The notes beneath the pieces were generated by a model. The model was given only the letters and a program-made list of their open reading frames with translations. It had not been told where the DNA came from and did not search any database. Made by a program: the position numbers and the translations under genes. Source: Dyella sp. BiH032 (GTDB lineage Bacteria; Pseudomonadota; Gammaproteobacteria; Xanthomonadales; Rhodanobacteraceae). From it: 64,000 nt of DNA. Shown in pieces: positions 7,459 through 27,263 of this stretch (position 1 is its first letter; the number at the start of each line of letters is the position of its first letter). The stretch is from contig NZ_CP134867.1 in NCBI RefSeq assembly GCF_031954525.1, forward strand, positions 3,038,001 to 3,102,000, in the 5' to 3' direction.

Positions 7459-8219
7459 ATGGCCCCGCCGATCGCATCCAGCAGCGACCAGGTCAGCAGC
7501 AGCCAGACCAGCGAGGACAGCACCAGATAGCCGAGCGCGCCGTAGGCCACGGCGCGCAACCAGGGCGCGAGCGCGATGCGCGTGTTGTCGCGATCCGACA
7601 CCACCGTGTAGTCGTAGGCCTGCGGGAAAGCCTGCGCGTCCACCGCGCCGAGCCGGCGTCCGCTGGCCAGCGGGTACAGCCGCGCGCGGTATTCGCGCAG
7701 CTTGTGCCTTCCTTCCGGCCCGCGATACATGCCCTGGAAGCCCAGCTGCATCGCCAGCAGCAGCACAGAGGCGAGGTCGGCATCCAGCGCGGTGCGCTCA
7801 CCCGCGCCCATCAGGTCTTCCACCAGGGTGAAGAACCGCCGGCCGGCGATGCGCGAGCGCTCGACCGTGTATTCGAGCAGGTGCTCGGGCCAGTGCTCGG
7901 CGCCGGGCCAGTGCAGTTCCAGGATGAAGATCTCGTCCGCCAGCGCCACCATGGCGTAGCGCGCGCGCCGGTACGCTTCCAGTTCCGCGCCGGTGGCCGC
8001 GGCCTGCACGTCGCGCGACTGGCGGTCCAGCACTGTCAGCAAGCGGTGCGCGATGCGCTCGGTCATCTCGTGCGCCGCCATCTCCCCGTGCGGGTTTTCC
8101 GGCTGCAACAGCTTGACCAGCCCGCCCTTGAGAATGGCGAGCTTGATCTGCGCGACCTCCTCGTAGAACGAGGCAAAGCGCGCCAGCAGGAAACTGGGAG
8201 CGGCGTCGTTCGCGCTCAT
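7455..8219 (-). CDS. tssL: T6SS inner-membrane protein TssL (DotU)
   Basis: This 254-residue DotU-family protein has a cytoplasmic helical body (FYEEVAQIK, YAMVALADEIFI, then ELHWPGAEHWPEHLLEY) and one C-terminal transmembrane helix (about residues 225-248, LGYLVLSSLVWLLLTW). There is no peptidoglycan-binding extension. Start ATG 8219 overlaps the tssK stop by 4 nt, and its own stop overlaps the tssM start by 4 nt. A longer frame runs upstream through tssK in the wrong phase and is ignored. TssL couples TssM to the TssK-bearing baseplate. Confidence 0.93.
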   Translation of the reverse strand: MSANDAAPSFLLARFASFYEEVAQIKLAILKGGLVKLLQPENPHGEMAAHEMTERIAHRLLTVLDRQSRDVQAAATGAELEAYRRARYAMVALADEIFILELHWPGAEHWPEHLLEYTVERSRIAGRRFFTLVEDLMGAGERTALDADLASVLLLAMQLGFQGMYRGPEGRHKLREYRARLYPLASGRRLGAVDAQAFPQAYDYTVVSDRDNTRIALAPWLRAVAYGALGYLVLSSLVWLLLTWSLLDAIGGAI

Positions 8220-9622
8220 GGACGCGGCGGTGCTCCTTCGCGTGGCAGGTACAACGTGATCGCCGCCGGCACGTTCTCGTCGGGCTCGCCGAGGATGACG
8301 AAGGTATGGCCTTCGTTGATCAACGGCCGCGACGCGCCGTCCTCGCCCTCGATGGTCGCGTTGGCGACCTCGTAGACGTAAGCCCCGGCGCGCAGGTTGA
8401 GCGCGGCAACCTGCGCCGGCGTCGCCTCCTTCACGGTGGCACCCGGATAACGGCGGCGCACCAGCAGGTAGATCAGCTCCTCGCTGGCCATGCGCGCGCT
8501 GCCCAGCCATTGCGACAGCGTGGCGGCGTTCTGGCCCGCGCGCGGGGTCAGCTCGATCAGCAGCTTGCCGGTATCGATGCCGCGCGGCAGCTGGATGCGG
8601 AAGCCGGACGCGCCGACGCGCTGGAACTCCAGCACGCGATAGTTGGCATTGAGCCGGCCGAGCTGATCGCGTACGTAGGTGATCGCCCGCATGAACCCCG
8701 GCAGGCAGTCGTTGTGATCGTAGGCGCCCAGCACCGGCGGCGGCGGCGCGCCCGGCGTGGCGGCGACGAAGCCCACCAGCTGCGACAACGCCAGGTACAG
8801 ATCGGCCGGGTGCGTGTGCCCCGCCTGCAGCAGCACGTCGAAAGCCGGCAGCGCCATCACCAGGTGGCGCGCTGCCTGCACCTGCGCGCTGGTCTCGGCG
8901 TCCTGCCGCGATTGCCCGCGCTCGTCCAGGCGCAGGCCGAGCAGTTCGCGGTACTTGCGCCACAGCAGTTCCGACAGCGAGGCCAGCGCGCGCTGCAGGC
9001 CCGTATCGCCTTGGAACGCCGACGCATCGATACGCAGCATCGGCGGATGGAACGGCGCCAGGTGCACGCCGCGCGAGTCCCCGTACAGTTCCAGCAGCGG
9101 CACCGAGCAATAGCTCTTGGCGATGCTGTCGCCGCAGGCCAGGCTCACCTTCGGCCGCATGCGGTCCACCACCATCTCGTCCTTGCCGGTGTTCTCGTCC
9201 GCCTCCAGCTCGCCGCGCTCGATGGTGTAGCGCTGCATGTCGCCGATGTCGCTGGCCGCGCCCTTGCCGCGCACCGGCACGCGCAGGTGTACGCGCACGG
9301 TCTTCTGCTGGTTCCAGTCGTTGCCGCTCAGGTCCAGCGAGAGCATGGACGGCGCGAAATGGCCGGGATAGTCGATCACCAGCCCGTCGGTCATCACGCA
9401 GCGCAGCCGCTGGAGCACCACCCGGCCCTTGGCCAGCTCGGTGCTGTCCAGCGCCAGGTCCAGCACGCCCCAGCTGTTGGAGTCGAGCATCAGCAGGCGC
9501 CGGTGCAGCAGGCTGTTCCAGTAGATGTCGTTCTGCTGGAAGTGGTGCGGCGACAGCAGCATGCCTTCGGACCAGGAGACCGGCTCGGGCAAGGTATCGA
9601 AGGCGTCGACGGCTGCGTTCAT
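8216..9622 (-). CDS. tssK: T6SS baseplate protein TssK
   Basis: TssK links the baseplate wedge to the TssL-TssM membrane complex. The 468-residue protein has the family-typical N-terminus (VSWSEGMLLSPHHFQQND) and a beta-rich shell domain. The C-terminal receptor-like region contains FQRVGASGFRIQLPRG and a late REGAPPRP tail. Start ATG 9622 is 19 nt after tssJ. The length is normal for the family, about 440-470. Confidence 0.95.
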   Translation of the reverse strand: MNAAVDAFDTLPEPVSWSEGMLLSPHHFQQNDIYWNSLLHRRLLMLDSNSWGVLDLALDSTELAKGRVVLQRLRCVMTDGLVIDYPGHFAPSMLSLDLSGNDWNQQKTVRVHLRVPVRGKGAASDIGDMQRYTIERGELEADENTGKDEMVVDRMRPKVSLACGDSIAKSYCSVPLLELYGDSRGVHLAPFHPPMLRIDASAFQGDTGLQRALASLSELLWRKYRELLGLRLDERGQSRQDAETSAQVQAARHLVMALPAFDVLLQAGHTHPADLYLALSQLVGFVAATPGAPPPPVLGAYDHNDCLPGFMRAITYVRDQLGRLNANYRVLEFQRVGASGFRIQLPRGIDTGKLLIELTPRAGQNAATLSQWLGSARMASEELIYLLVRRRYPGATVKEATPAQVAALNLRAGAYVYEVANATIEGEDGASRPLINEGHTFVILGEPDENVPAAITLYLPREGAPPRP

Positions 9623-9641: not shown

Positions 9642-10115
9642 TCATGGCTGTTCGGTCACGGCGATCTGGGTGGACTGGAGCCACACCACGGCGCGCCGGA
9701 ACTGGGTGAGGTCCGCGCGCGCCTGGCCGTCCTTGGCCAGGTAGTTGGCATAGGCGTAGACGGCGACGGCCTTGCCCGCGCGCTTGGGCAGCGGCACCGG
9801 ATCGATTACCAGCGCCGGCGGTATTTCCAGGTGCACGACGTCGATCTTCTGGCCCATGCCGCTCTGCAAGGCGGTCTTCTGCGCGAACCATTCGGGACCG
9901 GTCTTGGGCAGCATCTCGGCGCTGGCGGCGTCGTACAGGAAGACCAGGTCCAGCTGCGCCGCGGAGTTGAGATTGGCCCCGGGCGGCGCCGCCACGCGCA
10001 CGCTCGACAGCGTGGTGGTCGGCGTACGGCCCAGCAGCTTGTTCACCGTGCCGCAGCCGGCCAGGCCGGCCAGCAGCAGCGCGAGGACGATGGCGTGGGC
10101 GATCCGGCCGCGCAT
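9642..10115 (-). CDS. tssJ: T6SS outer-membrane lipoprotein TssJ
   Basis: The 157-residue protein begins with a lipoprotein signal peptide ending in the lipobox LAGC at about residues 18-21. A beta-sandwich body typical of TssJ/VasD follows (LVFLYD, KTGPEWFAQK, VVHLEIPP, VAVYANY-like strands). It is anchored in the outer membrane and holds the TssM periplasmic tip. Its ATG shares one base with the TGA of the upstream PAAR-like gene (TGATG), a re-initiation junction. tssK follows after 19 nt. Confidence 0.92.
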   Translation of the reverse strand: MRGRIAHAIVLALLLAGLAGCGTVNKLLGRTPTTTLSSVRVAAPPGANLNSAAQLDLVFLYDAASAEMLPKTGPEWFAQKTALQSGMGQKIDVVHLEIPPALVIDPVPLPKRAGKAVAVYAYANYLAKDGQARADLTQFRRAVVWLQSTQIAVTEQP

Positions 10116-11065: not shown

Positions 11066-12132
11066 CAGGGCATCTCCAGGGCAAGGGCGCGGGCCTCGGC
11101 GGCAAGGCGCTGCGGCGAGGTGCCGCGTACGCGGTGCGTATGCGCACCGCGCAGGTCGGCATCGACGAAACGGGTGTGGTGGAAGCTGGCGTAGTCCAGC
11201 CGCGCGCCGGCGAAACGCAGGCGTGCGCCGGTGGCGTGATCGAAACGCGCATATGCGAAGACCGCTGCGCCGGCGTCGACGTCCGCCAGCTGCGCGTGAT
11301 CCCACACGCTGCCGGTGGCGCGCGCGCCGTTCAGCGACACCTTGCGCAGCACGGCGGACTGGAACAGCGCGCCCTCGCAGGCGAGGCCGGTCGCGTCGAC
11401 CTCGCTCCATTGCGACTCCAGCAGCAAGGCGTTGTCCATGCGCGCCTCGCGCAGGCTGGTGCCGGCGAACACGGCCTTGCGCAAGTTGGCCTCGCGCAGG
11501 TCGGCGCCGTCGAGGCGCGCGCCGGTGAAATCGGCGCCTTCGAGCAGGCAGCGCTGCAGCACGATGCCGCGCAGGTCCATGCCATCGAACCGCGCGCCTT
11601 GCAGCACTGCCGCCTGCGCGATCAGGCCGGCGACATCCATGCCACGCGCATCGATGCCGGGAATCACCGCCTGCGTCAGCGTGGCCCCGGCAAGCACCAG
11701 TCCGCCCAGTTCGCACTGGGTGGCGACGGTGCGGTACAGGGTCGCCTGGTCGAAACGGGCGCCTTTCAAGTCGACCTGCGTGAATGCGGACAGCGCGAGG
11801 CTGGCCTGCGACCACAGCGATGCCGGCAGGTCGCATAGCGCTAACGCGGCCTGCTGCAGCGACGCCTTTTCCCAGCGCGAACCGTCCAGCCGGCAGCGGG
11901 TGAAGCTGCACCCTTCGAGCGTCGCCTCGCGCAGGTCCGCCTCGCGCAGGTCGCAGTCGACGAAGGTCACGTGCTGCAGGCGCGCGCCGCGCAATGCGGC
12001 GCCGCGCCATGTCGTCCGGTTGACGACGAGGTTGTCGATCGCGCGTCCGCTGCCATCCAGCGCGCCCAGGTCCACGCCGTGGACCGGCCGTCCCAGCCGT
12101 TGCAGCTGCGCGATGTCGTCCCAGCCGATCAC
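11065..12132 (-). CDS. Pentapeptide-repeat protein of the T6SS spike module
   Basis: This 355-residue protein starts at GTG 12132, which overlaps the previous stop by 4 nt (GTGA). From about residue 40 it is made of A(D/N)LRxA-type pentapeptides (ADLREATLEG, GADFTGARLDGADLREANLRKA and more), predicting a right-handed quadrilateral beta-helix over most of its length. The first 35 residues are unrelated. It has no signal peptide. It is the shorter of two adjacent pentapeptide proteins in the spike module. An adaptor or cargo-carrier role is inferred. Confidence 0.8.
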   Translation of the reverse strand: MIGWDDIAQLQRLGRPVHGVDLGALDGSGRAIDNLVVNRTTWRGAALRGARLQHVTFVDCDLREADLREATLEGCSFTRCRLDGSRWEKASLQQAALALCDLPASLWSQASLALSAFTQVDLKGARFDQATLYRTVATQCELGGLVLAGATLTQAVIPGIDARGMDVAGLIAQAAVLQGARFDGMDLRGIVLQRCLLEGADFTGARLDGADLREANLRKAVFAGTSLREARMDNALLLESQWSEVDATGLACEGALFQSAVLRKVSLNGARATGSVWDHAQLADVDAGAAVFAYARFDHATGARLRFAGARLDYASFHHTRFVDADLRGAHTHRVRGTSPQRLAAEARALALEMP

Positions 12133-14717
12133 GGCAGCCTCCGGCCGGGCTCCAGGCGCACGCCGTCGAGCCGGGCCTGGTCGAAGCGCGCCTCGGCGCA
12201 TTCGGCCTGCACGAAGTTCGCTTCGCGCAGATCCGCCTGGCGGAAGTCCGCGCGCCGGCACATGGCCTGGTAGAAATCCGCCGCCTCCGCATGGCAGCCG
12301 GTCAGTTCGCCGCTCATGAAGAGCGAGCGGTAGAACAGCGTGCGCTCCAGCACGGCCCGCGGCAGCCGTGCGTCGCTGAAGTCGCATTCGCGGAACTGCC
12401 CCTCGGCGAGGTTGGCATCGGCGAGGTTGGCGCCGCGCCAGCTGCTGTGGTCCGCGCGCACGCGCTGCAGGTCCGCGCGCGCCCAGTCCGCGCCGCCGCC
12501 GCCCTGCACGCGGCTGAGGTCCGCGCCGGCCCACAGGCTGTCGGTGAGCCGGCATTCCATCAGCACGCTGCGCACCAGCGCCGCTTCGCGCCAGTCCGCG
12601 CCGGCGAGACTGGACCCCAGCAGCACCGTGCGCTGCAACGAAGCGTGCGCCCAGCGGCTGCCGTCGGCCTTCGCGTGCAACAACACGCAGTCGGCCAGCG
12701 TGGCGTGTTCGAGGCTGGCGCCTTCCAGCACGATGTTCGGCGCGATCCAGCGCTCGAAGCGCGCGCCGGCCAAGTCCGCGCCGCGCCAGTCCGCATCGCC
12801 TGCCTGCGCGCCGGTGAAACTGGCGCTGCGGAACACCGTGTCATGCGCCCGCGTGCGCCCCAGGTTGGCGCCGTCGAAGCGCGCCGAGGTGCAGTCGGCC
12901 GCGTCCAGCGTGGCGCCGGTGAGCGCCACTTCGCTCAGGTCCGCGCCGTCGAGGCGTGCGCCGCGCAGGTCCGACGCTTCGAGCAGCGCGCCGCGCAGAT
13001 CGGCCCCGGAAAGCATGGCGCCGCGCAGGTCGGCACCGGCCAGATCGCAGCCGTGCAGCGACGCACCCTCGCGCAGCCGCAGCAGGATCCACTGGCCGAT
13101 CGCCGCGGCCACCTCCGGTTGCAGCGGCAGCCCCGGCACGCTGGGTTCGGGCGCGGCCAGCCGCCCCTTGCGATGCAGCTCCTGGATCTGCGTGACCGCG
13201 ACGGGCGGCACGCCGGCGATCGCGCCGAACTCGTTCAGTGCGCCCACCGCACCGGCATGGCCGGCGGCGCGCGCGAGCGCTTCCTCCGTGGTGGTCGCGG
13301 CGACCGGCGGCGCCGGCGGCAGCTCGGCCAGCTGGCCGGCAGCCTGTTCGCGCAAGGCCTGCGCCTGATCGCGCGCCTCATGCGCGACGCGATCGGCGGC
13401 ATCGAGCAGCTCGCCCAGGTCGAAGTCGCCGCGGCGAACGGCGGCGTCGGACGGAACGGGCAGCTGGATCGCCATCGGCGCCGGCGCAGCTTCCGGCGCC
13501 GGCATGCCGCCGGTCGCTTCGAACTCGGCCGCCAGGCCGGCCTCGCGTGCCGCCTGCGCGGTACGGCGGCGGGCTTCTTCTTCCTGCACCTCCGCGTGCC
13601 GCGCGGCGCGCAGGGCGGCATCCGGCTCCGGCGTGAGCTGCGCTTCGTTGAAGACGTGGCGCGCCGCGGTCTCGCGGTTGAGCCGCAGCGCGAGCACCTG
13701 GCCGTAGTGCGACAGCGGCCGCGGCGCATCGGCGGCGTGCTCGTACGCCACCATCAGCGCTTCGATGTCCAGCGCGAGGCTGTCCTCCACCTCGATCTCG
13801 CCGCGATGGATGGCGATGCCCAGCTCCGCGTCCGGGAAGAACCACACCGTGTCGAACGCCAGCGCGATCTCGTCCGCCGCATCGGCCGGACGGCCGGCGC
13901 GGTGGGCGAAGGCGCGCGGGCGGAACTCCGGCAGGAAGCCTTCGATCACCGGCTGCTGCGGATGCATGCCTTCGAGCCGGTACGGTTCGCCGCCGGCGAA
14001 GAATCCTTCGATGCGCTGGTCCAGCGGCGCGGCGTTGAAGAACTCCGCGTGCGTGTCGTCAGCCAGGCCCGGGTACGACTCGCTGCGCCAGCGCCGGCCG
14101 TAACGGCCGATCCATTGCCGCCGCGGCGCCCAGCCCACGTCGAGCTGGCCGAAGCCGGCCGGCACCTGGCGGCGGCGCGGACTGCGCACCGGCCGGCGCG
14201 GGTCTTCCACGTTCGGCATGTCGCCCTGGTTGCGGCCGAAGAACGCGGCGAGCGGATGACGTGCGTAGCCGCGTCCTTCCGGATTGCCTGGATGGCCGGC
14301 GCCGCCGTAGGCGCGGGCCCAGGTCAGCGGCATGTGGGTGAACGGCGAAGGCTCGGTGATCTGCAGCCACGGCAGCATGCCGTACATCCACTGGCGGTCG
14401 CCCAGCACGCGCAGCTGCTTGTCGATGCCGCCGACTTGCAGGCGCACGCTCATTTCGGTGGTCGCCAGCCCGTGCGCGGCGTACGCGCTGCCGGCCAGCA
14501 GCACTTCGCCGCGCGCCTTGGGCATGAGCTCGTCCAGCGGCCTTCCGGCGGGCAGCGCCGCCATCACCTTGCGCCACTGCAGGTTGTCGCGCAGCAGGCT
14601 GTCCGGCCGGCCGCCGAGCGCGAAGAAGCCCAGCGTCGCCACCAGCAGCCGGTCCCGGCCCTGCCAGCGGTACGGGCGGTGCATCAGGCCGAGGGTCATC
14701 GGTTTGACGATCTTCAT
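12129..14717 (-). CDS. DUF2169 domain protein with pentapeptide repeats
   Basis: This 862-residue two-part protein has an N-terminal DUF2169 domain of roughly 320 residues (MKIVKPMTLGLMHRPYRW, LTWARAYGGAGHPGNPEGRG). A variable Ala/Glu-rich middle follows (about 370-530), then a C-terminal run of pentapeptide repeats (ADLRGAMLSGADLRGALLEASDLRGA). DUF2169 proteins are T6SS effector-loading adaptors. Fusion to a pentapeptide beta-helix recurs in clusters of this layout. It lies 7 nt after vgrG and overlaps the next pentapeptide gene by 4 nt, so adaptor and spike are co-translated. Confidence 0.85.
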   Translation of the reverse strand: MKIVKPMTLGLMHRPYRWQGRDRLLVATLGFFALGGRPDSLLRDNLQWRKVMAALPAGRPLDELMPKARGEVLLAGSAYAAHGLATTEMSVRLQVGGIDKQLRVLGDRQWMYGMLPWLQITEPSPFTHMPLTWARAYGGAGHPGNPEGRGYARHPLAAFFGRNQGDMPNVEDPRRPVRSPRRRQVPAGFGQLDVGWAPRRQWIGRYGRRWRSESYPGLADDTHAEFFNAAPLDQRIEGFFAGGEPYRLEGMHPQQPVIEGFLPEFRPRAFAHRAGRPADAADEIALAFDTVWFFPDAELGIAIHRGEIEVEDSLALDIEALMVAYEHAADAPRPLSHYGQVLALRLNRETAARHVFNEAQLTPEPDAALRAARHAEVQEEEARRRTAQAAREAGLAAEFEATGGMPAPEAAPAPMAIQLPVPSDAAVRRGDFDLGELLDAADRVAHEARDQAQALREQAAGQLAELPPAPPVAATTTEEALARAAGHAGAVGALNEFGAIAGVPPVAVTQIQELHRKGRLAAPEPSVPGLPLQPEVAAAIGQWILLRLREGASLHGCDLAGADLRGAMLSGADLRGALLEASDLRGARLDGADLSEVALTGATLDAADCTSARFDGANLGRTRAHDTVFRSASFTGAQAGDADWRGADLAGARFERWIAPNIVLEGASLEHATLADCVLLHAKADGSRWAHASLQRTVLLGSSLAGADWREAALVRSVLMECRLTDSLWAGADLSRVQGGGGADWARADLQRVRADHSSWRGANLADANLAEGQFRECDFSDARLPRAVLERTLFYRSLFMSGELTGCHAEAADFYQAMCRRADFRQADLREANFVQAECAEARFDQARLDGVRLEPGRRLP

Positions 14718-14724
14718 GCGCGCC

Positions 14725-17307
14725 TCATACGTAGATGTAGACCACCGGGATCGACACGCTCATGCCGACGATGTCCAGCGAAATGCGCGCCGCGGCGAGC
14801 GTCACCGAGGTACCGACGCCGGTGACGTCCAGCGAGGTGGAAGAACCGTGGATGCCGATGCGCGTTTCCGTCCCGGTGACGCTCAGATCGGTGCTTTCGC
14901 CGGTCACCGACACGCCCATGCTGCTGCCGGTGACGCTGATGCGCGACGTGGAGCCGACCACGCCGATGTCCGAACCGGTGCCGGTTACCGAGACCTGGCT
15001 CTGCTGCCCGGTGACGTTGATGCCCGAACTCTTGCCGGTGACGTTGATCTGGTTGCTCTCGCCGGTGACCGAGGTCTGGTCGCTGCTGCCCGTAGCCGAT
15101 ATCTGCTGCGCGATGCCGGTGACCGAGGTGCTCTCGCTCTTGCCGGTCACCGAGGTTTCCGTGCGCACGCCCGTCAGCGAGACCTGGCCGGTGAGCCCGG
15201 TGAGCGAGGTATTGGAGCTCACGCCCGTGGCCGACGTCACCGAGGTCATTCCCATCAACTCGTGCGCGGTGTTCTCGCCGGTGGTCGTGGTGCTTTCCTG
15301 TTGCCCGGTGAACGTCGTGCTCTTGGAGACGCTGGTGGTCGAAATGCGCGTGGCCGTGCCGAGCACGGTGTCTTCGGCGTAGGTGTCGCCGGTGATGGTG
15401 CTGTAGCTGGTGCTGTTGCCGATGGTGCTCTTGTTCCAGGTGATCGCCGCTTCCTGGGTGTTGTAGGTGCTGCCGTAGGATTCGGAGCGGCTCAGCAGCC
15501 CGTCGGCGCCGTCCTCGGAGGTCGAGTAGCTGTAGCTGGCGCCCTGCTGGTAGCTGGTGTCGCGGTACTGCCCGCTCTCGTAGGCGCCGTTGACGATGCC
15601 CACCGCGCGGTCCAGGTCGTAGGCCGAGTGCAGGCCGAAGCGGATGCTCTGCCCGTCGCCGTAGGTCGTGGAGTAATTGCTGCCGACGTGGGTATTGGCC
15701 GTCCATCCAGAAGGCGTCACTACCAGGTTGCCGTTGGGCGCGATGATCTGCTGCACCTCCGGCAGTTCCGATTCGTCGCTGGCGCGCGTGACCAGCACGG
15801 TGACGCCGATCTCCGGCACCGTGTTCATGCTCGCCGAGAGCTTCACCCACACCGGCTCCTGCGGCGAGCCGGGCGTGGAGAACTGCACGTACACGCCCTT
15901 GGCCAGCAGGTTCGGCGGCGCCGCCTGCGAATCGCGCAGGCGGCTGGTGGCCGGATCGAAATTGGCCGGCTCGTAATAGCGCCAGTCGGTGGGGCCGCGC
16001 CCGGCCATGTCCACCACCTTGGCCAGGATGCCGCCCTGCTGCGTGTCCTGCACCGAGAACGCGGTGAGCATCGCGGCCGCGTCGGTGGCCTCGAACTGGT
16101 TGGTGTAGCCGCCGTCGGCGCTGGCCTTGTGCTGCACCTTGCTCAGCACGAAGGATTTGCCCTCCAGCGACGGGCGCACCGGCGACGGCGACACGCCCTG
16201 GGCCATGTCCCCCCTCATGGTGAACTGGCTGCCGACGCGGAAGCCGCTGCAGGTGCTGCTGCCGGAGAGCTGGCGCGCGGACGCGGCCATGCTCGACGCG
16301 GTGGTGCGGATGTACTGCCGCACCGTGCCGCTGCTCATGCCGTACTGATAGGTGCGGTACTGGTTGAACGGCAACTCGCCCGGATCGGCCGGCGTGAACG
16401 CGTCGAAGGTCTGGAAGGTCGGCACCGGATCTTCGTCCGGCGCGTTCTCCTGGTGCACGAAGCGGCCGCTCACGCCGGTGCTGGTGAGCGATTGCTGGTA
16501 GCTGTACTGGAACACCACGTCGTCCATCTGGAGCCCCAGCTCGTCGATGGCGGTGTGGGTGTAGCGCAACGGCCTGCCGAAGGCCTGCGTATAAGCCGGG
16601 CGGTTGGCGAACACCACGGTGTGGCCGTTCCCGGTGTGGCGGAAGTAGTAGTAGATGTGCGCCTTGGACATCATGCGGCGCAGGAACTCGAAGTCGCTCT
16701 CGCCTGCCTGCAGCCAGTCCTGCACGCGCGCCACGGCGATGTTGTCCTCGCCGGACACGGCATCCAGCGAGAAATCGATGTAGTGCTGGCGCATCAGGTC
16801 CGCGATCACGTCGCGCACGCTCTTCTGCGCGTGCACCACGTAGCGGTTGGTGAGTGCGAGCCGCCACAGCGCCGGCTTCATGCCGATGCGGTACACGCCC
16901 GGCTCGTCCATCGCGAAGGAGCTGACCATGCCGTTGTACAGCGTCATCGACGGCGCCGACCCCGTGCGCAGCGCCTGCGCGAAGCGCGCGGCGGCATCCG
17001 GCGGGCCGTCCTGCGCCGGGCGGTTGATGCCCACGGTGACGGGGCGTCCGACCAGCGCATCGAAACTCAGCGACCGACCGCCGCGCGGGTCGGTGTTGCC
17101 GCGCAGCTGCAGCTGGAAATCGAACGGCTCGGACACCGACTCCTGTCCCTCGAACGACAGCAGCCGGAACGTCTCGTCGCCCAGCCACTGGTTGCCGGCC
17201 ATCGAGATGCCGCAATGCAGGTACAGCAGCGGCGAATCCGCCTGTCCGGCATGCCCGATCGGCAGGATCGCCGTACGGCCGGCGGTATCGGTCGGCAGTG
17301 CGCTCAT
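14725..17307 (-). CDS. vgrG: T6SS spike protein VgrG with long nonapeptide C-terminal needle
   Basis: VgrG trimerises into the puncturing spike on Hcp. The 860-residue protein starts at ATG 17307, overlapping tssG by 4 nt. The gp27-like N-terminal region is clear (FEGQESVSEPFDFQLQL, VRDVIADLMRQHYID, DFEFLRRMMSKAHIYYYF). The OB-fold/gp5 region follows (TDWRYYEPANFDP, EIGVTVLVTR, then VVTPSGWTANTHVGSNYST). The last ~180 residues are a Ser/Thr/Gly/Val repeat of period nine ending mostly in VTG, before a hydrophobic tip (IPVVYIYV). No enzymatic domain is seen at the C-terminus, so toxin delivery must use the adaptor genes downstream. Confidence 0.93.
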   Translation of the reverse strand: MSALPTDTAGRTAILPIGHAGQADSPLLYLHCGISMAGNQWLGDETFRLLSFEGQESVSEPFDFQLQLRGNTDPRGGRSLSFDALVGRPVTVGINRPAQDGPPDAAARFAQALRTGSAPSMTLYNGMVSSFAMDEPGVYRIGMKPALWRLALTNRYVVHAQKSVRDVIADLMRQHYIDFSLDAVSGEDNIAVARVQDWLQAGESDFEFLRRMMSKAHIYYYFRHTGNGHTVVFANRPAYTQAFGRPLRYTHTAIDELGLQMDDVVFQYSYQQSLTSTGVSGRFVHQENAPDEDPVPTFQTFDAFTPADPGELPFNQYRTYQYGMSSGTVRQYIRTTASSMAASARQLSGSSTCSGFRVGSQFTMRGDMAQGVSPSPVRPSLEGKSFVLSKVQHKASADGGYTNQFEATDAAAMLTAFSVQDTQQGGILAKVVDMAGRGPTDWRYYEPANFDPATSRLRDSQAAPPNLLAKGVYVQFSTPGSPQEPVWVKLSASMNTVPEIGVTVLVTRASDESELPEVQQIIAPNGNLVVTPSGWTANTHVGSNYSTTYGDGQSIRFGLHSAYDLDRAVGIVNGAYESGQYRDTSYQQGASYSYSTSEDGADGLLSRSESYGSTYNTQEAAITWNKSTIGNSTSYSTITGDTYAEDTVLGTATRISTTSVSKSTTFTGQQESTTTTGENTAHELMGMTSVTSATGVSSNTSLTGLTGQVSLTGVRTETSVTGKSESTSVTGIAQQISATGSSDQTSVTGESNQINVTGKSSGINVTGQQSQVSVTGTGSDIGVVGSTSRISVTGSSMGVSVTGESTDLSVTGTETRIGIHGSSTSLDVTGVGTSVTLAAARISLDIVGMSVSIPVVYIYV
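14780..15260 (-). repeat. 27-bp coding repeats encoding the VgrG nonapeptide array
   Basis: The 3' part of vgrG encodes consecutive nine-residue units, for example ESNQINVTG, KSSGINVTG, QQSQVSVTG, STSRISVTG and ESTDLSVTG. About ten units keep an exact nine-residue period; further upstream the spacing loosens but the (S/T)xTG ending persists. The pattern predicts a regular beta-solenoid lengthening the spike. Confidence 0.85.
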
Positions 17308-18431
17308 GCGGCCTCCGCCGGATCGTCGGCGCGGATCGTGAAGCGCACCTCGCGCGGTTGCGCGGGCTTGCCGCGCAGCCACGCCGTCTGCCCCAGGCGC
17401 AGGCCGTGGCCGCTGCCGAAACCGGCCAGGCGGCGCGGGCGGCCCAGCCACGCGGGCGGGATGTCGTCCTCGGCCACGGCGATCGAGACCACTGCGTCGA
17501 CATGGCGATCGAACAGGTAATGCACCATCGCCGCCAGGCCGCGGTAGCCGTCGCCGAAGCGGCTTTCGTGCGCTCCGTCGTCCAGGTGCGCGCAGTCCTG
17601 CAGCAACAGGCACAGCCGGGCATAAGGCACCGGCCCGACGTGCAGCGCGACCGCCGCGTGGTTCACCCACACCCGGCGCCCCAGCGGCGCGCCGTCGCGC
17701 AAGCGCCGCGCCCCCAGCAGCGTGCGGTCGCGCGCCTCGATGTCGCGCCACGCACCGACCAGGGCTTCCACCCGCACCGGCGCCTGCAGGTACACGCCCA
17801 GCACGATCTGCGCCTGCGCCGCACTCTTGCGGCCGTTCGCCACCAGCCCGGCCAGGGCCAGCAGCGCACGGCGCGGCAGCGGCACGCGGTGGGCGAGGAT
17901 GGCCGCGCCCTCCCCTTCGAACGGCGTCAGGCCCATCAGGGCCCCGACCGCATCGGCCTGCCGGGTGTACTCCGGCCGCGTCGCGTCGAAGGCCGGCACG
18001 CTGGCCGCCTTCAGTTCGTAGCGCAGCGTGCTGAGGCGGTGGTTGAAGATGTCCAGGAACTCCGCCATCGCCGGGTCGCGCTCGGCCAACCGCTGGCGGA
18101 TCCATTCGGCGAAGCTGTCCGGCAGCGGCCCGAGCACGCCGGACAGCGCGAAGTTCGCCACGAACAGTTCGATACGCGGATCGCGCACCGAACGGCGGCG
18201 TTCGGCGCGTAGCCGGCCGGCGGAGATTTCGCTTCCGGGGAACACCGGCGACATCTCGCCGCGGAAGCGCAGGTGCGCGCCGACCTCGCGCGCACCGCGC
18301 CGGCGCGCGGCCGGGTCTTGCGGCGAGGGCCACGATTGCAGGCGCACCCACTGGAAGAAATCGAAGCTCGCCGGCCGCGCACGCAGCCGGTCGGCTAGAG
18401 GTTCACCTGTGCGCCAGTCAGGGGTTCCCAT
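17304..18431 (-). CDS. tssG: T6SS baseplate protein TssG
   Basis: The 375-residue protein has the TssG start MGTPDWRTGEPLADRL followed by FDFFQWVRL, and later motifs such as FVANFALSGVLGPLP, RDPAMAEFLDIFNHRL and LGRRVWV. It forms the baseplate wedge with TssF, TssE and TssK. ATG 18431 lies 37 nt inside the end of tssF, a longer overlap than the other junctions but supported by the conserved N-terminus. The stop overlaps vgrG by 4 nt. Confidence 0.92.
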   Translation of the reverse strand: MGTPDWRTGEPLADRLRARPASFDFFQWVRLQSWPSPQDPAARRRGAREVGAHLRFRGEMSPVFPGSEISAGRLRAERRRSVRDPRIELFVANFALSGVLGPLPDSFAEWIRQRLAERDPAMAEFLDIFNHRLSTLRYELKAASVPAFDATRPEYTRQADAVGALMGLTPFEGEGAAILAHRVPLPRRALLALAGLVANGRKSAAQAQIVLGVYLQAPVRVEALVGAWRDIEARDRTLLGARRLRDGAPLGRRVWVNHAAVALHVGPVPYARLCLLLQDCAHLDDGAHESRFGDGYRGLAAMVHYLFDRHVDAVVSIAVAEDDIPPAWLGRPRRLAGFGSGHGLRLGQTAWLRGKPAQPREVRFTIRADDPAEAA

Positions 18432-20218
18432 GACTTGAGCTCTCCTCGGCGGTCGGAAGATTCGAGAACCAGTTCGACGACAGTGTTGACCTCCGCGTAA
18501 AGCGCCAGGAAACGGTGCAGCACGCTGCCGAACAGCACGGCGCTGCCTCCTTCGAAATGCCCCAGGTCCACCTGCACGCGTACCTGCAGGCAGTCGACGA
18601 AGCCGCGCCAGGCCTCGCGCAGCGGCATGCGACGTTGCACGCGGCGCGTGGACAGCGCGCGCAGGCCATCGATCTGGCGATAGCCGGTGAGACTGGCCGG
18701 GCCCACGTGCAGCCGCAGCATGTTCTTGAGCACTGGCGGCCCGCGCCGCCCGTCCACCAGCGAGAGATGGTTGAGGCACAGCTGCGAGACCAGCGCCCAC
18801 GGCCGTTCGCCCACCATCTGCGGCGGCTGGTTCGGCGTGGGTTTGCAGGCGACCTTGAGCGATGCCACCGGCCCGGCGCCTTCGAGGAACAGCACGCTGC
18901 CGACCAGCAGCTGCGACGGCAACCGGCGGTTGGTGCACAGCGCGGTACCGCCGATCATCTCCTCCGGCGGCAACACCGTGTCGAACTCCGGGTCCAGGAA
19001 CGACACATAGGTCTCGGTGCCGTGCACCGCGCCGGTCTGGTTCACCTCGCGGCGCGTGGCATAGAAGTAGTCGATCTTGTCCAGCCGCTGCATGTCGTCC
19101 AGCGCGAAGTACGGCGCGATCGGTCGCGGGCTGCGGTCCGGACGGATCGAAACCAGTTCTTCGAGGCTGTAGATCTCGCAGTAACGGTGGTTCTGCTCGT
19201 CCGCGACCAGGCGGTACTCGTAGTGCCGCTGGTCCAGCACGAACGGCTCGATGCGCTGCGGGAACAGGTTGATCAGCGGCAGGCAATTAAGCCGCAGCAG
19301 CTGGCGGTCGTAGTAGTGGTCCTTCGACGGCGGCACATCGAGCAAGAACAGCAGGTCGAACTCGCGGTCCACGCCCGACAGGTCCATGCCCGCCACGTCG
19401 AAGAACAGGAACTTCTGCGGAAACGCGAAGTACTCCTGCACCAGCCGGTAGCCCGGATGCGTCAGCGGGTTGGCGCCGAGCACCGCCTCGTCCGGTGCGA
19501 AGCCGCGCCACTTGAGCTGGCCGGCATCGAGGTAACGCAGTTCGCCGGTGGACGGGATGCGCACCGCCATCCGCACCAGGTGCATGGCCAGCGCGTCGTA
19601 CAGCGCATAGGCGTGCTTGTGCTCAGCATGGATGCAGAACCGCAGGAATGGCATCTTCATCGCGTGCACGGGTTCCTTGCCCATGCAAGTGACGGTGGCG
19701 CGGACGATCGAGGCGGTACGGGTATCCGCCGGATCCAGCGGGTAGGCGTTGGCCGCCATCGCGTCCACGTGGGTGATCTTCAGCGGCCACAGCGGCGTGT
19801 CGTAGCAGGTGCGGAAACGGCAGCGCACCTGCTGGCCGGTGTCATTGGTGGCCAGCGCGTAGACGTAGCGCCCGCGTTCGAGCGTGGCGCCGTGCGCGAA
19901 ATTGGCGCCGTCCGGGCGCACGTCGATCTCGCCCACCACCATGGACGGCAGCGGCGCCTCCAGGTGCGGATAGAGCTGGGCCAGCAGCGCGTTCGGCAGC
20001 ACCGCCTGGTCGGTTTCCAGCTGGTAACGCAGCCGTCCGCTCAGCCAGGCGAACGACTGCATGAGCATTTCCACGTGCGGATCGCTGCTGCGTCCGCCGC
20101 TCAGTTCCAGCTCCTTGGCGATGGCGGGAAAGGACGCGCCGAAATCCACCGCCTCGTCGCGCAGCGAGGCCAGTTCCTGCTCGTACCACATCTTCAGCCG
20201 GGGCGCGTCGGCGTTCAT
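18395..20218 (-). CDS. tssF: T6SS baseplate protein TssF
   Basis: The 607-residue protein matches TssF/VasA. It has an N-terminal YEQELASLRDEAVDFGASFP, SSDPHVEMLMQSFAWLSGRL, QLYPHLEAPLPSM, and a C-terminal region with GTEVTV-like strands ending in AEVNTVVELVLESSDRRGE. Two TssF copies per wedge wrap TssG. ATG 20218 overlaps the tssE stop by 4 nt. An in-frame extension to 20461 is shadow of tssE and is excluded. Confidence 0.95.
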   Translation of the reverse strand: MNADAPRLKMWYEQELASLRDEAVDFGASFPAIAKELELSGGRSSDPHVEMLMQSFAWLSGRLRYQLETDQAVLPNALLAQLYPHLEAPLPSMVVGEIDVRPDGANFAHGATLERGRYVYALATNDTGQQVRCRFRTCYDTPLWPLKITHVDAMAANAYPLDPADTRTASIVRATVTCMGKEPVHAMKMPFLRFCIHAEHKHAYALYDALAMHLVRMAVRIPSTGELRYLDAGQLKWRGFAPDEAVLGANPLTHPGYRLVQEYFAFPQKFLFFDVAGMDLSGVDREFDLLFLLDVPPSKDHYYDRQLLRLNCLPLINLFPQRIEPFVLDQRHYEYRLVADEQNHRYCEIYSLEELVSIRPDRSPRPIAPYFALDDMQRLDKIDYFYATRREVNQTGAVHGTETYVSFLDPEFDTVLPPEEMIGGTALCTNRRLPSQLLVGSVLFLEGAGPVASLKVACKPTPNQPPQMVGERPWALVSQLCLNHLSLVDGRRGPPVLKNMLRLHVGPASLTGYRQIDGLRALSTRRVQRRMPLREAWRGFVDCLQVRVQVDLGHFEGGSAVLFGSVLHRFLALYAEVNTVVELVLESSDRRGELKSWEPLTGAQVNL

Positions 20219-20634
20219 GCCAGCGACTCCGGGCAAGGCAGTTCGAAGCGGAACGGGTTGGCCTCGCCTTCGATCAGCACGTTGCCATGCACGACCAGGG
20301 CATACGGTCGCATGGCCTCGCCCGTGGCCAGCCATTCCAGCCGCGGCGTCCGCAGGCGCGGCTCGAAGCGCGCGATGGCCGCGAGCAGCCGTGCGCCGAA
20401 GCGCTCGTGATCGGTCATGCCGATCGAGGTGTCCACGATCGGCGGCATGCCGAACTCGCACACCCTCGCCCCGCGCACGCCTTCATAAGGGCGGCACTCC
20501 ACGATGCGCTGGATCTGTGCGGCGACAGCCGCGGCCGGATCGAACGGCGGCGCCAGGCCCATGTCCGGCTCACTGCGATTGACCAGCCGCTCCAGCAGAA
20601 ATTGCACGAGCCCTCTCCTCCGCCCCGGCAGCAT
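20215..20634 (-). CDS. tssE: T6SS baseplate wedge protein TssE (gp25-like)
   Basis: This 139-residue gp25/lysozyme-like wedge protein has the characteristic order of an N-terminal LLERL, an AAQIQRIVECRP segment, YEG near the middle, and ERFGARLLAAIARFEPRLRTPRLE preceding a C-terminal beta strand pair (VVHGNVLIEGEANPFRFEL). It starts sheath polymerisation from the baseplate. It is preceded by a 95-nt gap after hcp and is translationally coupled to tssF. Confidence 0.9.
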   Translation of the reverse strand: MLPGRRRGLVQFLLERLVNRSEPDMGLAPPFDPAAAVAAQIQRIVECRPYEGVRGARVCEFGMPPIVDTSIGMTDHERFGARLLAAIARFEPRLRTPRLEWLATGEAMRPYALVVHGNVLIEGEANPFRFELPCPESLA

Positions 20635-20729: not shown

Positions 20730-21296
20730 TCACGTGGTGAACTGCCCGATCGGGCGGTTGCGCGCGATCGACCAGCCGGCCGCCAGGTTGCCGGAGGTAT
20801 TCATGTCGGCCTCCTGCACCGTGTACGTCCATAGCACTTCGGTGAAGTTGAGCTTGAACTGCTCGGTCGGCATGTCGTCCGGATTGGACTGGAACTGGAT
20901 CTCGCTGATGATCGCGTCGCGCAGCTCGATGGTGAGGATGTTGGCGGTCTTCTCGCCCGAGTTGCGCGCGATGTAGATCTTGGTGGGGTTCTTCTCGCCC
21001 TTGCCCAGCGGCTGCGCGCGCAGGCAGTACTCGTAGAACTTGACCGAGGTCTTGTCCACGTACTTCACGCAGGTGAACTCGGTGATGATCGGACGGCCGG
21101 AAGTACGCGCCGAGTTGCTCACGTCGGTGGTGATCTGCTGCTTCATGCCCTGGTGCACGGAGACCAGCTCCAGGCATTGGCCCAGCTTGAGCACTTCGTC
21201 GCGCCACTGGTCGTCGATCAGGCTTCCACCGCCCTTCCAGCCGTTGGGGCCGCCGAAGATCGATGAATCGCCCGGTTGCAAGAGAATGAGGTCCAT
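20730..21296 (-). CDS. hcp: T6SS tube protein Hcp (TssD)
   Basis: This 188-residue tube subunit starts MDLILLQPGDSSIFGG and contains the Hcp signatures of two tube-forming sheets around TSGRPIITEFTCVKYVDKTSVKFYEYCLRAQPL, with a C-terminal LNFTEVLWTYTVQE. It is slightly longer than common 160-172-residue Hcp, with extra residues at the C-terminal tail (NLAAGWSIARNRPIGQF). Hcp hexamers stack inside the sheath and carry small cargo. It lies 39 nt after tssBC. A short perfect inverted repeat (AGTTCAC/GTGAACT) spans the stop codon and may protect the 3' end of the abundant message. Confidence 0.93.
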   Translation of the reverse strand: MDLILLQPGDSSIFGGPNGWKGGGSLIDDQWRDEVLKLGQCLELVSVHQGMKQQITTDVSNSARTSGRPIITEFTCVKYVDKTSVKFYEYCLRAQPLGKGEKNPTKIYIARNSGEKTANILTIELRDAIISEIQFQSNPDDMPTEQFKLNFTEVLWTYTVQEADMNTSGNLAAGWSIARNRPIGQFTT

Positions 21297-21335: not shown

Positions 21336-23699
21336 TCAGCCCGCCGGGAGATCCGCCACCAGGCGAATCGACGTGGTCAGTTCTTCGAGCTGGAAGTGCG
21401 GCTTGATGAACACCGTGGCCTTGTACGAGCCGGGCGATCCGGGCACGTCGGTCACGGTGATCTGCGCGGCGCGCAACGGATAGCTTGCCTTCACTTCCTG
21501 CGAGGCGTTGTCGTCCAGCAGCACGTACTGCGCGATCCAGCTGTTGAGATAGGCCTCGATGTTGCCGCGGGTGAGGAACGCGCCGATCTTCTTGCGCATG
21601 ATCACCTTGATGTAGTGCGCGAAGCGCGACGCCGCCAGGATGTACGGCAGCATCGCCGACAACTTGGCGTTGGCATTGGCCTCGTCGCTGATGTACTGGC
21701 GCGGCAGGTTGGCGGTCTGCCCGCCGAAGAACGCCGCCTGGCCGGTGCCCTTGCAGTTGCACAGCGCGATGAAGCCCAGGTCGTTGAGCTCCTTCTCGCG
21801 CCGGTCGGTGATGGACACTTCGGTCGGGCAGATCATGTTCACCAGGTCCGCATCGTCGCGGTAGGTGAACACCGGCAGCCCGTCGACCAGGCCGCCGCCT
21901 TCCACGCCGCGGATCGCGGCGGTCCAGTGGTACAACGCGAACGAATGCGTGATGCGCTCGGCCAGCGCATAGGCCGCGTTGCCCCACAGGAAGGCGTTGT
22001 GGTCCGGACCGTCGGGTCCGGTCACCGTCTCCTCGTAGCGCAGGCCTTCGGCCGGGCGCGCGTCTTTGCCGTACGGCAGGCGCATCAGGATGTGCGGCAG
22101 CGCGAGGGCGACGTAGCGCGAGTCCTCGCTACCGCGGAATTCCACCCACTGCGCCATTTCCGGCGACTCGAACAGCTGGCTCAGATCGCGCGGCTTGGCC
22201 AGCTTGTCGAAACCGTCCAGCCCGAACAGCCCCGGCGCGGCGGCCGCGATGAACGGCGCGTGCGCGGAAGCGGCCACTTTGGTCATGTTCGACAGCAGCG
22301 ACATGCTGGCCGGCGTGTGGTCGAACTCGTAGCCACCCACCAGCAGGCTGTACGGCGAGCCGCCATAGGTGCCGAACTCGGCCTCGTAGATCATCTTGAA
22401 GATGCAGCTCTGGTCGAAATCGGCCGCCTTCTCCAGTTCCTTGCGCAGCTCGTCCATGCCGGCGTTGAACACGCGCAGCTTGAGCAGCTTGCCGCTTTCG
22501 GTGCGCGACACCACGTAGTACAGGCCGCGCCAGGTAGCTTCCAGATCCTTGAACGACTTGGCGTGCAGGATGGCATCCAGCTGCACGCCGATCTGCACGT
22601 CGATGCCGCCGGCACGCTCGTCGATCAGGCCGCTGGCGCCGAGCGCCACCTGGGTGAGTTCCTTGTTGCCCATCGGCCCGAGGATCTCGTTGGCGAAGCG
22701 GCCGGCCAGCCGACGCGCCTTGCTCAGCGGATCGATCGAGAGGAAGGCCTGCTGGCGCTCCGCCGCGAGCGCGGCCTGGCGCTTGGCCAGGTCTGCCGCG
22801 GCGTCGTTCTGCGCCTGTGCGGCGAGCAGCGCGACGTCGGCGTCGTCCTTGTCCTTCTTGGCTTTGACCGCGGCCGCGTTGGCGTCGGCGATCGCCTGGT
22901 CGCCCTTGGCCTTGCCCGCCGCATCCTGCGCCTTGCCCAGCGCGGTCGCCGCGTCGGCGGCCGCCTTCTGCGCCGCCGTGAGCGCGCCCGCGGCGGTCTT
23001 GGCCGCATCGTCCGCGCTGGCGGAGGCCGCCACGGCCGCATCCGCAGCCTGCTTGGCCGAGGCCGCCGCCTGCGCATTGCCGGCCATCTGCGCGGCCAGC
23101 AAGCTGACCAGCGCACCGGGCACGGCGGCGCCGGTCGCGTTGGCGGGCGGATTGTCCTGCGCATCGACCTTCGCCGCGGCCCACGCGTCCGGCGAGGCGT
23201 CGCCGAAGGTGGTCTTGAGCGCGCCCGTCGCTTCGGCGTCGAGCGTGGTGTGATCGAGCAGCGAGGCCAGCGCATCGTTGCATTCGGCCATCGACTGCAG
23301 CGCGCGCAGGTCGGCGCGTGCGTCGTAGCGCTGCCGCAGGCTGGGCACCGCATTGACGATCGCCAGCGGCTCGAAGTCGGCCAGGCTGGTGAAGCGCAGC
23401 TCGCCCGTGAGCTTCTTGCCGTTGCCGGCGATGGTGTCCGCGATCCCGTTCAATTTGATCAGCGGCGTACTGTCCGCCAGGATCTTGTCGAACGATTCGC
23501 CATCGATGTCGCGCATGCGCCGGTCCTTCATGGCCGGCAGCGCACTCGCATCGAGCTCGCCGGAAAGGTTGGCGAACATGCCGACGATGAAAGCCAGCTC
23601 CACCTTCTCGCTCGAGCCGCCCGTCTCGACGTCGTACGTAATGCGCACGCGCGGCGGCCTCACACGCAATAGCTTCTGTTGAATGCTCTCGACAGTCAT
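21336..23699 (-). CDS. tssBC: Fused TssB-TssC contractile sheath protein
   Basis: One uninterrupted 787-residue frame contains both sheath subunits. Residues 1-150 are a TssB/VipA domain (PPRVRITYDVETGGSSEKVELAF, MFANLSGE, FTSLADFEP, LRALQSMAECNDALASLL). Residues 151-315 are a linker, strongly Ala/Lys/Asp-rich from 200 to 315 and probably helical. Residues 316-787 are a TssC/VipB domain (DIQIGVQLDAILH-like start, LEATWRGLYYVVSRT, FGTYGGSPYSLLVGGYEFDH, then WCC-free NCKGTGQAAFFGGQ). TssB and TssC are normally separate adjacent genes. Here no stop, start or frameshift separates them and the linker keeps coding codon usage. It is the first gene of the cluster and is preceded by a sigma-54-like promoter. 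Confidence 0.93.
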   Translation of the reverse strand: MTVESIQQKLLRVRPPRVRITYDVETGGSSEKVELAFIVGMFANLSGELDASALPAMKDRRMRDIDGESFDKILADSTPLIKLNGIADTIAGNGKKLTGELRFTSLADFEPLAIVNAVPSLRQRYDARADLRALQSMAECNDALASLLDHTTLDAEATGALKTTFGDASPDAWAAAKVDAQDNPPANATGAAVPGALVSLLAAQMAGNAQAAASAKQAADAAVAASASADDAAKTAAGALTAAQKAAADAATALGKAQDAAGKAKGDQAIADANAAAVKAKKDKDDADVALLAAQAQNDAAADLAKRQAALAAERQQAFLSIDPLSKARRLAGRFANEILGPMGNKELTQVALGASGLIDERAGGIDVQIGVQLDAILHAKSFKDLEATWRGLYYVVSRTESGKLLKLRVFNAGMDELRKELEKAADFDQSCIFKMIYEAEFGTYGGSPYSLLVGGYEFDHTPASMSLLSNMTKVAASAHAPFIAAAAPGLFGLDGFDKLAKPRDLSQLFESPEMAQWVEFRGSEDSRYVALALPHILMRLPYGKDARPAEGLRYEETVTGPDGPDHNAFLWGNAAYALAERITHSFALYHWTAAIRGVEGGGLVDGLPVFTYRDDADLVNMICPTEVSITDRREKELNDLGFIALCNCKGTGQAAFFGGQTANLPRQYISDEANANAKLSAMLPYILAASRFAHYIKVIMRKKIGAFLTRGNIEAYLNSWIAQYVLLDDNASQEVKASYPLRAAQITVTDVPGSPGSYKATVFIKPHFQLEELTTSIRLVADLPAG

Positions 23700-24292: not shown

Positions 24293-24397
24293 GATCAGGG
24301 CATGGATGCCCTGTCAAAAAGCCCGGCCAGCCCTCAACGCACCCGCAGCAGCGAAGGCTACGGAGGGCGCCGCGCAGGGGGCCCTTCTTCTTGGTTA

Positions 24398-25515: not shown

Positions 25516-25785
25516 TTACTTCTTCTTGGGCAAGCAAGAAGAAGTAACTCGCTCTTCGGCAGGAGAGCGAAACCCTCGCCCCGCAAGGGGCGAGACAAGG
25601 CTGGCGATAAGGCGACAACCGAGCCGTGTCGCCCCTGGGTCCCGGCCTACGTCGCAATGACGAGGATAAGCGGACACGCCCTCGAACAAACACCCATCAA
25701 ACCACGCAAACGCCGAAGGCAAAACCAGGCGCCCACAAAAAACCGAAAACCGGGAATCGACCACCGGAACCGGCCAAAGAAAGAA

Positions 25786-26041: not shown

Positions 26042-27058
26042 TCAGTCGCCTGAATCTTGCTCCTGTCCGACCGCGGAAGCGAGCCGGTACTTGCTCACCA
26101 GCTTGCTGAAGGCGCTGCGGTCCTGGCCCGCCATGCGCGCCGCCTGGGTGATGTTGCCGCGCGCCTTGGCCATCGCAGACGCGACGTAGCTGCGCTCGAA
26201 ATCCGCGATGGCGCGCGCCTTGGCCTGTTTGAACACAGTGTCCCCATCGGCCGTGGAGGGCGGCGGCGGCGAGTCCTGGAGAGGGCCGCCCTGGATCTCC
26301 CGTCCGTCGCACATCAGGTACTCGCGCTGCACGAAATGTTCGAGTTCGCGCACGTTGCCCGGCCAGCTGTAGCGCTGCAGGGCGGAAAGGAACGACGGGT
26401 GGAAGCATTTGGGCGTGGTCTGCGTACCGAACTGCCGATTCAGCCGCGTGAGGAAGGCCTCGGCCAGCTCCACCACGTCCCCGCCGCGTTCGCGCAGCGG
26501 CGGCATCACCAGCGGCATGACCTTGAGCCGGTACAGCAGGTCGCGGCGGAACTGCCGCGTCTTCACCAGCTCGTCGAGGTTGGCATTGCTGGCGGCGATC
26601 AGGCGCACGTCGGTTCGCCGCGTCTGCGTGCCGCCCACGCGGCGATAGGTGCCGTCCTGCAGGAAACGCAGCAGCGCGGCCTGTGCCTTCAACGACAGCG
26701 TATCGACCTCGTCGAGGAACAGCGTGCCGCCTTCGGCTTCGCTGACCAGCCCCGGCGAAGCCTGTCGCGCATCGGTGAATGCACCACGCTCATGCCCGAA
26801 CAGTTCACTCTCGACCAGCGAATCCGCCAGTGCGCCGCAGTTGACGGCGATGAACGGCTTCGATGCGCGCGCACTCAGATAGTGCACGGCCCTGGCTCCC
26901 AACTCCTTGCCCGTACCTGTCTCCCCTCCGATCAGCACGGTCACGTCGAACTTCGCGATGCGGCGTATCTGCGCGATGACGTGTGCGAACTGCGGCGAGG
27001 AGCCAAGCAGGTTGGACTCCGCGATATCGACCATGACGCCCCCTGAAACCGGAGCCAT
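26042..27058 (-). CDS. Sigma-54-dependent activator, VasH-like, no receiver domain
   Basis: This AAA+ enhancer-binding protein consists of the central domain plus a C-terminal Fis-type helix-turn-helix (NITQAARMAGQDRSAFSKLVSKY). Walker A is GETGTGKE and Walker B is GGTLFLDEVD. The sigma-54-contact loop reads GAFTDA instead of GAFTGA. No regulatory N-terminal domain is present. Start 27058 (MAPVSGG) follows AAAGGA; ATG 27034 (MVDIAES) follows AGGGGG and is equally plausible; GTG 27112 is possible. Activators of this type switch on T6SS genes, and a sigma-54-like promoter precedes tssBC. Linkage of the two is inferred, and the IS30 element now lies between them. Confidence 0.8.
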   Translation of the reverse strand: MAPVSGGVMVDIAESNLLGSSPQFAHVIAQIRRIAKFDVTVLIGGETGTGKELGARAVHYLSARASKPFIAVNCGALADSLVESELFGHERGAFTDARQASPGLVSEAEGGTLFLDEVDTLSLKAQAALLRFLQDGTYRRVGGTQTRRTDVRLIAASNANLDELVKTRQFRRDLLYRLKVMPLVMPPLRERGGDVVELAEAFLTRLNRQFGTQTTPKCFHPSFLSALQRYSWPGNVRELEHFVQREYLMCDGREIQGGPLQDSPPPPSTADGDTVFKQAKARAIADFERSYVASAMAKARGNITQAARMAGQDRSAFSKLVSKYRLASAVGQEQDSGD

Positions 27059-27263
27059 CGCATCCTTTGCTTCCCTGGCGATACCCCGGACGCGCAATGT
27101 TGCCCCTCGCACCGCGCGACCGCAATATGCTCGCGCCAGGAAAAAACCGTAGGCGCGTCACTCTATCCGGGCATATCCATGTGAAGACGCCCAAATGTCT
27201 TTTTCATGTGAAGGGGACTTGGCGCGCGCCTGCTTCGCCACACGGTCAGGGGGCCGTCGATCG

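Follow-up and report, generated by a model that had tools for sequence, protein, structure and literature searches.

TssB and TssC, the two sheath proteins of a type VI secretion system (T6SS), are encoded by one conserved reading frame in Dyella sp. BiH032. The T6SS is a toxin-injection machine whose spring-like sheath is normally built of two separate proteins and recycled by a dedicated enzyme. Judging from its sequence, the fused chain is probably the single-chain, phage-like sheath protomer of a near-complete T6SS, which would contract normally but would not be recycled by ClpV. Positions refer to the window, the whole stretch of 64,000 nucleotides that was analysed.

One conserved reading frame for TssB and TssC

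As in a canonical sheath, both domains score over the curated cut-offs: TssB at residues 8-163 (TIGR03358, 107.0 bits against a cut-off of 97.25; PF05591, 110.6 bits) and TssC at residues 349-785 (TIGR03355, 584.5 bits against 271.5; also PF05943 and PF18945). Canonical sheaths consist of two separate polypeptides, whereas here a single open frame encodes both. A first-pass annotation of this DNA had proposed a natural TssB-TssC fusion, and the proposal is borne out; the ends of the frame and its 787 residues were given correctly, while the minus strand was left unstated. That annotation took both domains to be complete, but TssC is not quite so, because the TIGR03355 alignment starts only at model position 40 of 473 and leaves unrecognised the N-terminal TssC segment, where known systems have their ClpV-binding helix. 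Its 165-residue linker is present at about residues 164-326, although not as a featureless stretch, since AlphaFold2 models it almost wholly as long helices from residue 206 on. The features of the gene are as follows.

21336..23699, minus strand: fused tssB-tssC gene, 787 aa, ATG start, single open reading frame
23211..23666, minus strand: TssB (VipA) domain, residues 12-163 (PF05591, TIGR03358; alignment to VipA)
22722..23210, minus strand: linker, residues 164-326
22734..23084, minus strand: residues 206-322, two long predicted helices (206-263, 267-322), probable hairpin (AlphaFold2)
22680..22721, minus strand: residues 327-340, match to TssC helix alpha2 (PSSM scan)
21345..22655, minus strand: TssC (VipB) core, residues 349-785; D632 is the counterpart of VipB D333 (family models, alignment)

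A count of homologues with the same architecture had been suggested as a check. The search found 298 homologues, and all of the best 120 (120/120) have VipA, VipB and VipB_2; the 43 closest are 784-790 residues long. Most source names of these homologues read "large subunit" or ImpC, hiding the fusion. The genome itself contains one TssBC match. At the level of loci, 80 named ones were considered, these being the best of 526 relatives; TssB and TssC share one frame in 34 of them, comprising 18 isolates and 16 metagenome bins. The isolates belong to Dyella, Luteibacter, Rhodanobacter, Chitinolyticbacter, Chitiniphilus, Hylemonella, Zooshikella, Alteromonas, Thalassomonas, Trinickia, Paraburkholderia, Undibacterium and Planctobacterium, and two of the bins are labelled SAR324 and Desulfobacterales.

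The possibility that TssC is translated on its own, from an internal start codon, was considered and rejected. A simple scan of residues 151-360 found no Shine-Dalgarno-like site at start codons of the linker. The sole codon preceded by such a site is the GTG at residue 351, which lies inside TssC and is not a start codon in 3 of 5 relatives checked.

A natural TssB-TssC fusion is not described among the top-listed full-text matches, a scope that excludes subscription papers and preprints. Phrase matches for fused sheath proteins, including PMC5797969, concerned fluorescent-protein fusions. At the words searched, such a fusion appears neither in Boyer 2009 (PMC2660368) nor in PMC6653060, which surveys the T6SSs of Xanthomonadales, Dyella among them. 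The fused sheath is a variation on a known machine, the T6SS.

The surrounding cluster and ClpV

On the minus strand, the genes 3' of the fused gene encode, in order, Hcp, TssE, TssF, TssG, VgrG, a DUF2169-pentapeptide protein, a DUF3540 protein, a PAAR-like protein, a TssJ candidate, TssK, TssL, TssM and TssA, and a sigma-54 activator gene lies upstream.

26042..27112, minus strand: sigma-54 activator, upstream of the fused gene (PF00158)
20730..21296, minus strand: Hcp (TssD) tube protein (PF05638; TIGR03344 below cut-off)
20215..20634, minus strand: TssE, divergent (TIGR03357 36.6 bits, cut-off 53.2; PF04965 25.0 bits, cut-off 27.2; both below cut-off)
18395..20461, minus strand: TssF (PF05947, TIGR03359)
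17304..18398, minus strand: TssG (PF06996, 188.1 bits)
14725..17307, minus strand: VgrG (TssI), start set at an inner Met (PF05954; TIGR03361 below cut-off)
12129..14717, minus strand: DUF2169 plus pentapeptide repeats, TvpAB-like PAAR chaperone (PF09937, PF00805; named after PMC13373197)
10517..12292, minus strand: DUF3540, TvpC-like (PF12059; PMC13373197)
10115..10513, minus strand: PAAR-like protein (PF13665)
9642..10115, minus strand: TssJ candidate (lipoprotein-like N-terminus and cluster position; no family match)
8216..9622, minus strand: TssK (PF05936, 146.9 bits)
7455..8219, minus strand: TssL (DotU) (PF09850, 86.3 bits)
3463..7458, minus strand: TssM (IcmF) (PF14331, 147.2 bits; TIGR03348, 172.8 bits, below the cut-off of 388.15)
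2283..3443, minus strand: TssA (TIGR03363, PF06812)

The core genes TssA-TssG and TssI-TssM are all represented, although TssE scores under its two cut-offs and the TssJ assignment is that of a candidate. Relatives of the sigma-54 activator occur in 16 of the 22 fused loci examined. Between the activator and the fused gene lies an IS30-type element (24395-25519; transposase 24405-25469, minus strand), whose imperfect terminal repeats and flanking direct repeat were identified by eye, the terminal repeats being unreported by the repeat finder. The related loci searched gave no IS30 match. Adjoining TssA, a 196-residue frame (1674-2264) matches a DNA/RNA non-specific endonuclease and is a possible T6SS effector.

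The core gene absent from the cluster is ClpV (TssH). By profile search, no protein exceeded the NCBIfam cut-off for ClpV in the cluster or in the genome, whose best match to the ClpV model (852.9 bits) is ClpB, scoring 1469 bits on TIGR03346. The system is nevertheless kept in the wider family, a T6SS lacking ClpV being accepted for Francisella (PMC5481754). No ClpV replacement was found among the families common to at least 6 of the 22 fused loci examined (of 34), namely Tss, spike-chaperone and sigma-54 activator families; the scan extended to frames with a counterpart in the window, others, many of them antisense, lying outside it.

Of 61 relatives, 14 encode a ClpV that exceeds the cut-off: 0/7 with a fused gene and 14/15 with separate TssB and TssC. 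The one exception, G011 (locus L119), encodes DUF2169 and VgrG proteins downstream of its separate sheath genes and no ClpV over cut-off in its genome, and represents another ClpV-less, unfused T6SS. Pooling the seven fused relatives with 30 of the 34 named fused loci, and counting once the three that occur in both sets, gives 34 distinct fused genomes. In none of the 34 does the contig with the fused gene carry ClpV less than 30 kb away from it, and 23 have none over cut-off anywhere. ClpV could be missed in these counts, because many fused contigs are short and 16 of the 34 named fused loci come from metagenome bins. The other 11 genomes encode a ClpV elsewhere, which might act in trans. A separate TssC is also present in 12 of the fused genomes, and ClpV occurs in 11 of these 12 versus 0 of the remaining 22.

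ClpV lies within 30 kb of 30 out of 40 separate TssC genes (33/46 with six weaker rows added). Four of the ten without a nearby ClpV are in genomes with an unassigned ClpV on another contig, and six have none to assign (contig ends unchecked). When named loci were restricted to those flanked by 7 kb or more at both ends, BLAST comparison with a single ClpV and a single ClpB placed ClpV in 0/21 fused versus 23/28 separate loci. Three of the five separate loci without it belong to genomes with ClpV elsewhere, and two (L092, L097) to genomes with none over cut-off. As six of the 40 separate TssC genes have no ClpV to assign and three bins with separate genes (L092, L097 and L112) have none over cut-off, its absence is not unique to fusions. 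It should also be noted that the link between fusion and ClpV absence is not statistically independent, because the fusion has about one origin (1 independent pair).

Linker, ClpV-binding helix and ancestry of the fusion

The linker is 43% alanine over residues 190-322. In the AlphaFold2 monomer model, residues 206-344 are almost wholly long helices (206-263, 267-322 and 324-344, each with block means of at least 90), and block-mean pLDDT is at least 90 over residues 201-350. Confidence in such models may be inflated for Ala-rich helices. Mean pLDDT of the whole model is 78.3, with poor values at residues 12-33, which are the contraction linker itself, and over much of TssC from about residue 591. 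The helices 206-263 and 267-322 probably form a hairpin, a shape proposed from the model's helix limits rather than from coordinates. A short-linker homologue is likewise modelled as mostly helical in its linker (mean pLDDT 70.3). Against nine relatives, pN/pS is 0.17-0.37 for TssB, 0.10-0.31 for TssC and 0.22-0.76 for the linker, the fastest-changing part of the protein. These linker values indicate a segment that is translated and constrained, though weakly, by purifying selection.

Among solved folds, the nine top Foldseek matches are large-subunit chains of T6SS sheaths (9n4v_A, 57% identity), followed by TssB chains with high probability but E above 0.1. Against viral folds, only an unnamed phage protein matched with E below 0.001. 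In published structures, the TssB C-terminal and TssC N-terminal ends sit in surface domain 3, a T6SS-specific layer tied to ClpV recycling (PMC4632598, PMC5807055). These are the two ends joined in the fusion.

That the TssC end recognised by ClpV is internal here had been pointed out in the first-pass annotation, and this proved to be the right lead. In a PSSM scan of the protein, helix alpha2 of TssC scored 15.1 (shuffled 99th percentile 4.1), while the N-terminal, ClpV-binding helix alpha1 scored -23.0 (shuffled 99th percentile -3.6) and is not recognisable by this lineage-specific profile. The alpha1 profile is passed by 45/46 held-out separate proteins and by 15/155 fusions, leaving the helix unrecognisable in 140/155, where the 155 are 121 protein clusters and 34 loci that partly overlap. 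Alpha2 passes in 44/46 held-out separate and 71/155 fused proteins, and the core control in 46/46 and 155/155. On separate TssC of other classes, only 6/20 pass the alpha1 profile. In P. aeruginosa, HsiC1 does not need its N-terminus to bind ClpV1 (PMC4239648). Since this holds for HsiC1 and the profile is lineage-specific, loss of alpha1 does not by itself exclude ClpV binding.

The best alpha1 scores among fusions belong to L095, L115, L056, L050, P0068 and L086. In quick trees of TssC, for which the root was not inferred, 37 of 38 fused rows form one clade with support 99, also when the window's own row is added. This clade splits into 30 and 7 rows, the 7-row subclade having support 84, and all seven of its members (L046, L050, L054, L056, L060, L095 and L115) keep an alpha1 relic; in L095 the whole segment of a separate TssC is readable inside the fusion. 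We infer from these sequences, with the tree unrooted, that whole proteins were joined first and that the helix may have decayed later in the larger fused group. Constraining the 37 fused rows together in a reduced set of 97 was not rejected (p-AU 0.751). Many separate origins were rejected on these trees; the fusion has about one origin. The fused row outside the main clade, L086 from a Planctomycetaceae bin, keeps a ClpV-type helix and is possibly an independent fusion.

A class-even sample of 370 genomes contained 70 with a match, and two (G000 and G408) were judged fused, a rough figure with two candidates scored per genome and other rows judged from a table. Closer inspection confirmed a single 663-aa frame in G408 but showed two genes in G292, which had seemed fusion-like at first. 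Plasmids gave 439 records with a match; the three places inspected all have separate genes.

Sheath contraction, sheath fate and known systems

Lengthening the N-terminal linker of VipA blocks contraction, and VipB D333 is required for it (PMC5797969). The TssB N-terminal contraction linker aligns to VipA without gaps, its length unchanged. D632, the equivalent of VipB D333 by a hand count on chain 3j9g_B with the first residue taken as 61 (PMC5048182), is invariant in 88/88. Both canonical contraction features are thus present at hand-counted positions; the position of VipB K223 is Q517. The fused chain would fold as a tethered TssB-TssC heterodimer, assemble around Hcp and contract. Assembly and contraction are proposed because the N-terminal contraction linker and D632 are kept. 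The helical linker would take the place of the ClpV-docking segment on the outer sheath face, and the contracted sheath would not be taken apart by ClpV. The tether may affect stoichiometry, stretch and contraction, as raised in the first-pass annotation. After contraction, the sheath would either serve a single time and lack any dedicated recycling, like phage tails and R-pyocins, or be extracted by a general unfoldase, e.g. ClpB as in Francisella.

Extraction by ClpB is a branch of the preferred reading that differs only in the fate of the sheath, and is possible but less likely than not. ClpB is encoded in the genome, and Francisella, without ClpV, needs ClpB (PMC5481754). However, ClpB is a general housekeeping protein and its presence is weak evidence, and no adaptor gene was identified among the families shared by fused loci with a counterpart in the window. 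Rather improbable is a fused precursor whose linker is cut by a protease to give an ordinary two-part sheath: the linker changes fastest (pN/pS up to 0.76) and the stretch separating the TssB match from the TssC match ranges in length from 41 residues (shortest, among proteins) to 355 (longest, among loci), as a disposable spacer might, but the linker is predicted to be helical and not an exposed coil. Decay of a non-functional system, with ClpV loss and fusion as its steps, is very improbable; the IS30 element between the activator and the sheath gene would fit it, whereas the window's core genes are open, the genes from sheath to spike chaperones recur across fused loci, and pN/pS stays under 1 in the linker and at 0.10-0.31 in TssC. 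An assembly or frameshift error that removed a stop and a start, named earlier as the possible refutation, is negligible, being refuted by the identical architecture in 18 named isolates, 16 named metagenome bins and at least 120 listed protein clusters, together with the linker pN/pS.

Beyond the preferred reading of a contracting single-chain protomer, a bolder form is conceivable but unlikely. The fused loci might constitute a ClpV-independent T6SS class whose sheath has reverted to a one-chain form as in phages, a covalently threaded single-shot device in which the helical hairpin is a new outer-surface element replacing the ClpV dock. Neighbouring protomers may even be stapled together by the chain, since in the P. 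aeruginosa sheath the TssC helix into which it runs packs on an adjacent heterodimer (PMC5807055).

Compared with canonical TssB/TssC (VipA/VipB) and ClpV, the system has both domains and the same tube, baseplate, membrane and spike genes. It differs in having one chain instead of two, an unrecognisable ClpV helix and no ClpV in the cluster. R-type pyocin and phage T4 gp18 sheaths have one sheath polypeptide per protomer, and the one-chain protomer is their likeness to the fused protein. PMC5807055 refers to gp18 and to a sheath subunit of the pyocin, and such sheaths are not recycled. Domain 3 is missing from R-pyocin and gp18 has different outer domains (PMC5807055), whereas the fused protein keeps T6SS-type sequence. 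The class III Tvp spike-chaperone set (PMC13373197) resembles the cluster in its row of DUF2169-pentapeptide, DUF3540 and PAAR-like genes; the excerpts of that paper do not mention a fused sheath. Close by TssC (58% identity) is the P. phymatum T6SS-b, assigned to family i4a in PMC8356804, from which the family name is taken. That system differs in its separate tssB and tssC genes; on locus L123, tssC is followed at a distance of about 3 kb by a ClpV frame. The Francisella T6SS differs in gene content from the fused cluster (see also PMC5481754). It is alike as a working T6SS without ClpV, but its IglA and IglB are separate chains (3j9o) and its sheath is recycled by ClpB (PMC5481754).

This lineage, spread over many genera, pairs a near-complete T6SS with a fused protomer and lacks linked ClpV, and it can serve as a natural test case for the need for dedicated recycling and for the roles of the TssC N-terminus besides ClpV recruitment. 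An order of events is suggested by the members whose fusion still contains a relic of the ClpV helix, and a fixed 1:1 protomer would suit structural work.

Elsewhere in the window, a 4372-residue filamentous-haemagglutinin-type exoprotein (DUF3739; 34311-47429) and a ShlB/FhaC-type transporter (53614-55212) probably make up a two-partner secretion system. A 1131-residue frame at 51755-55150 has MotA/TolQ/ExbB, Laminin_G_3 and DUF2341 matches.
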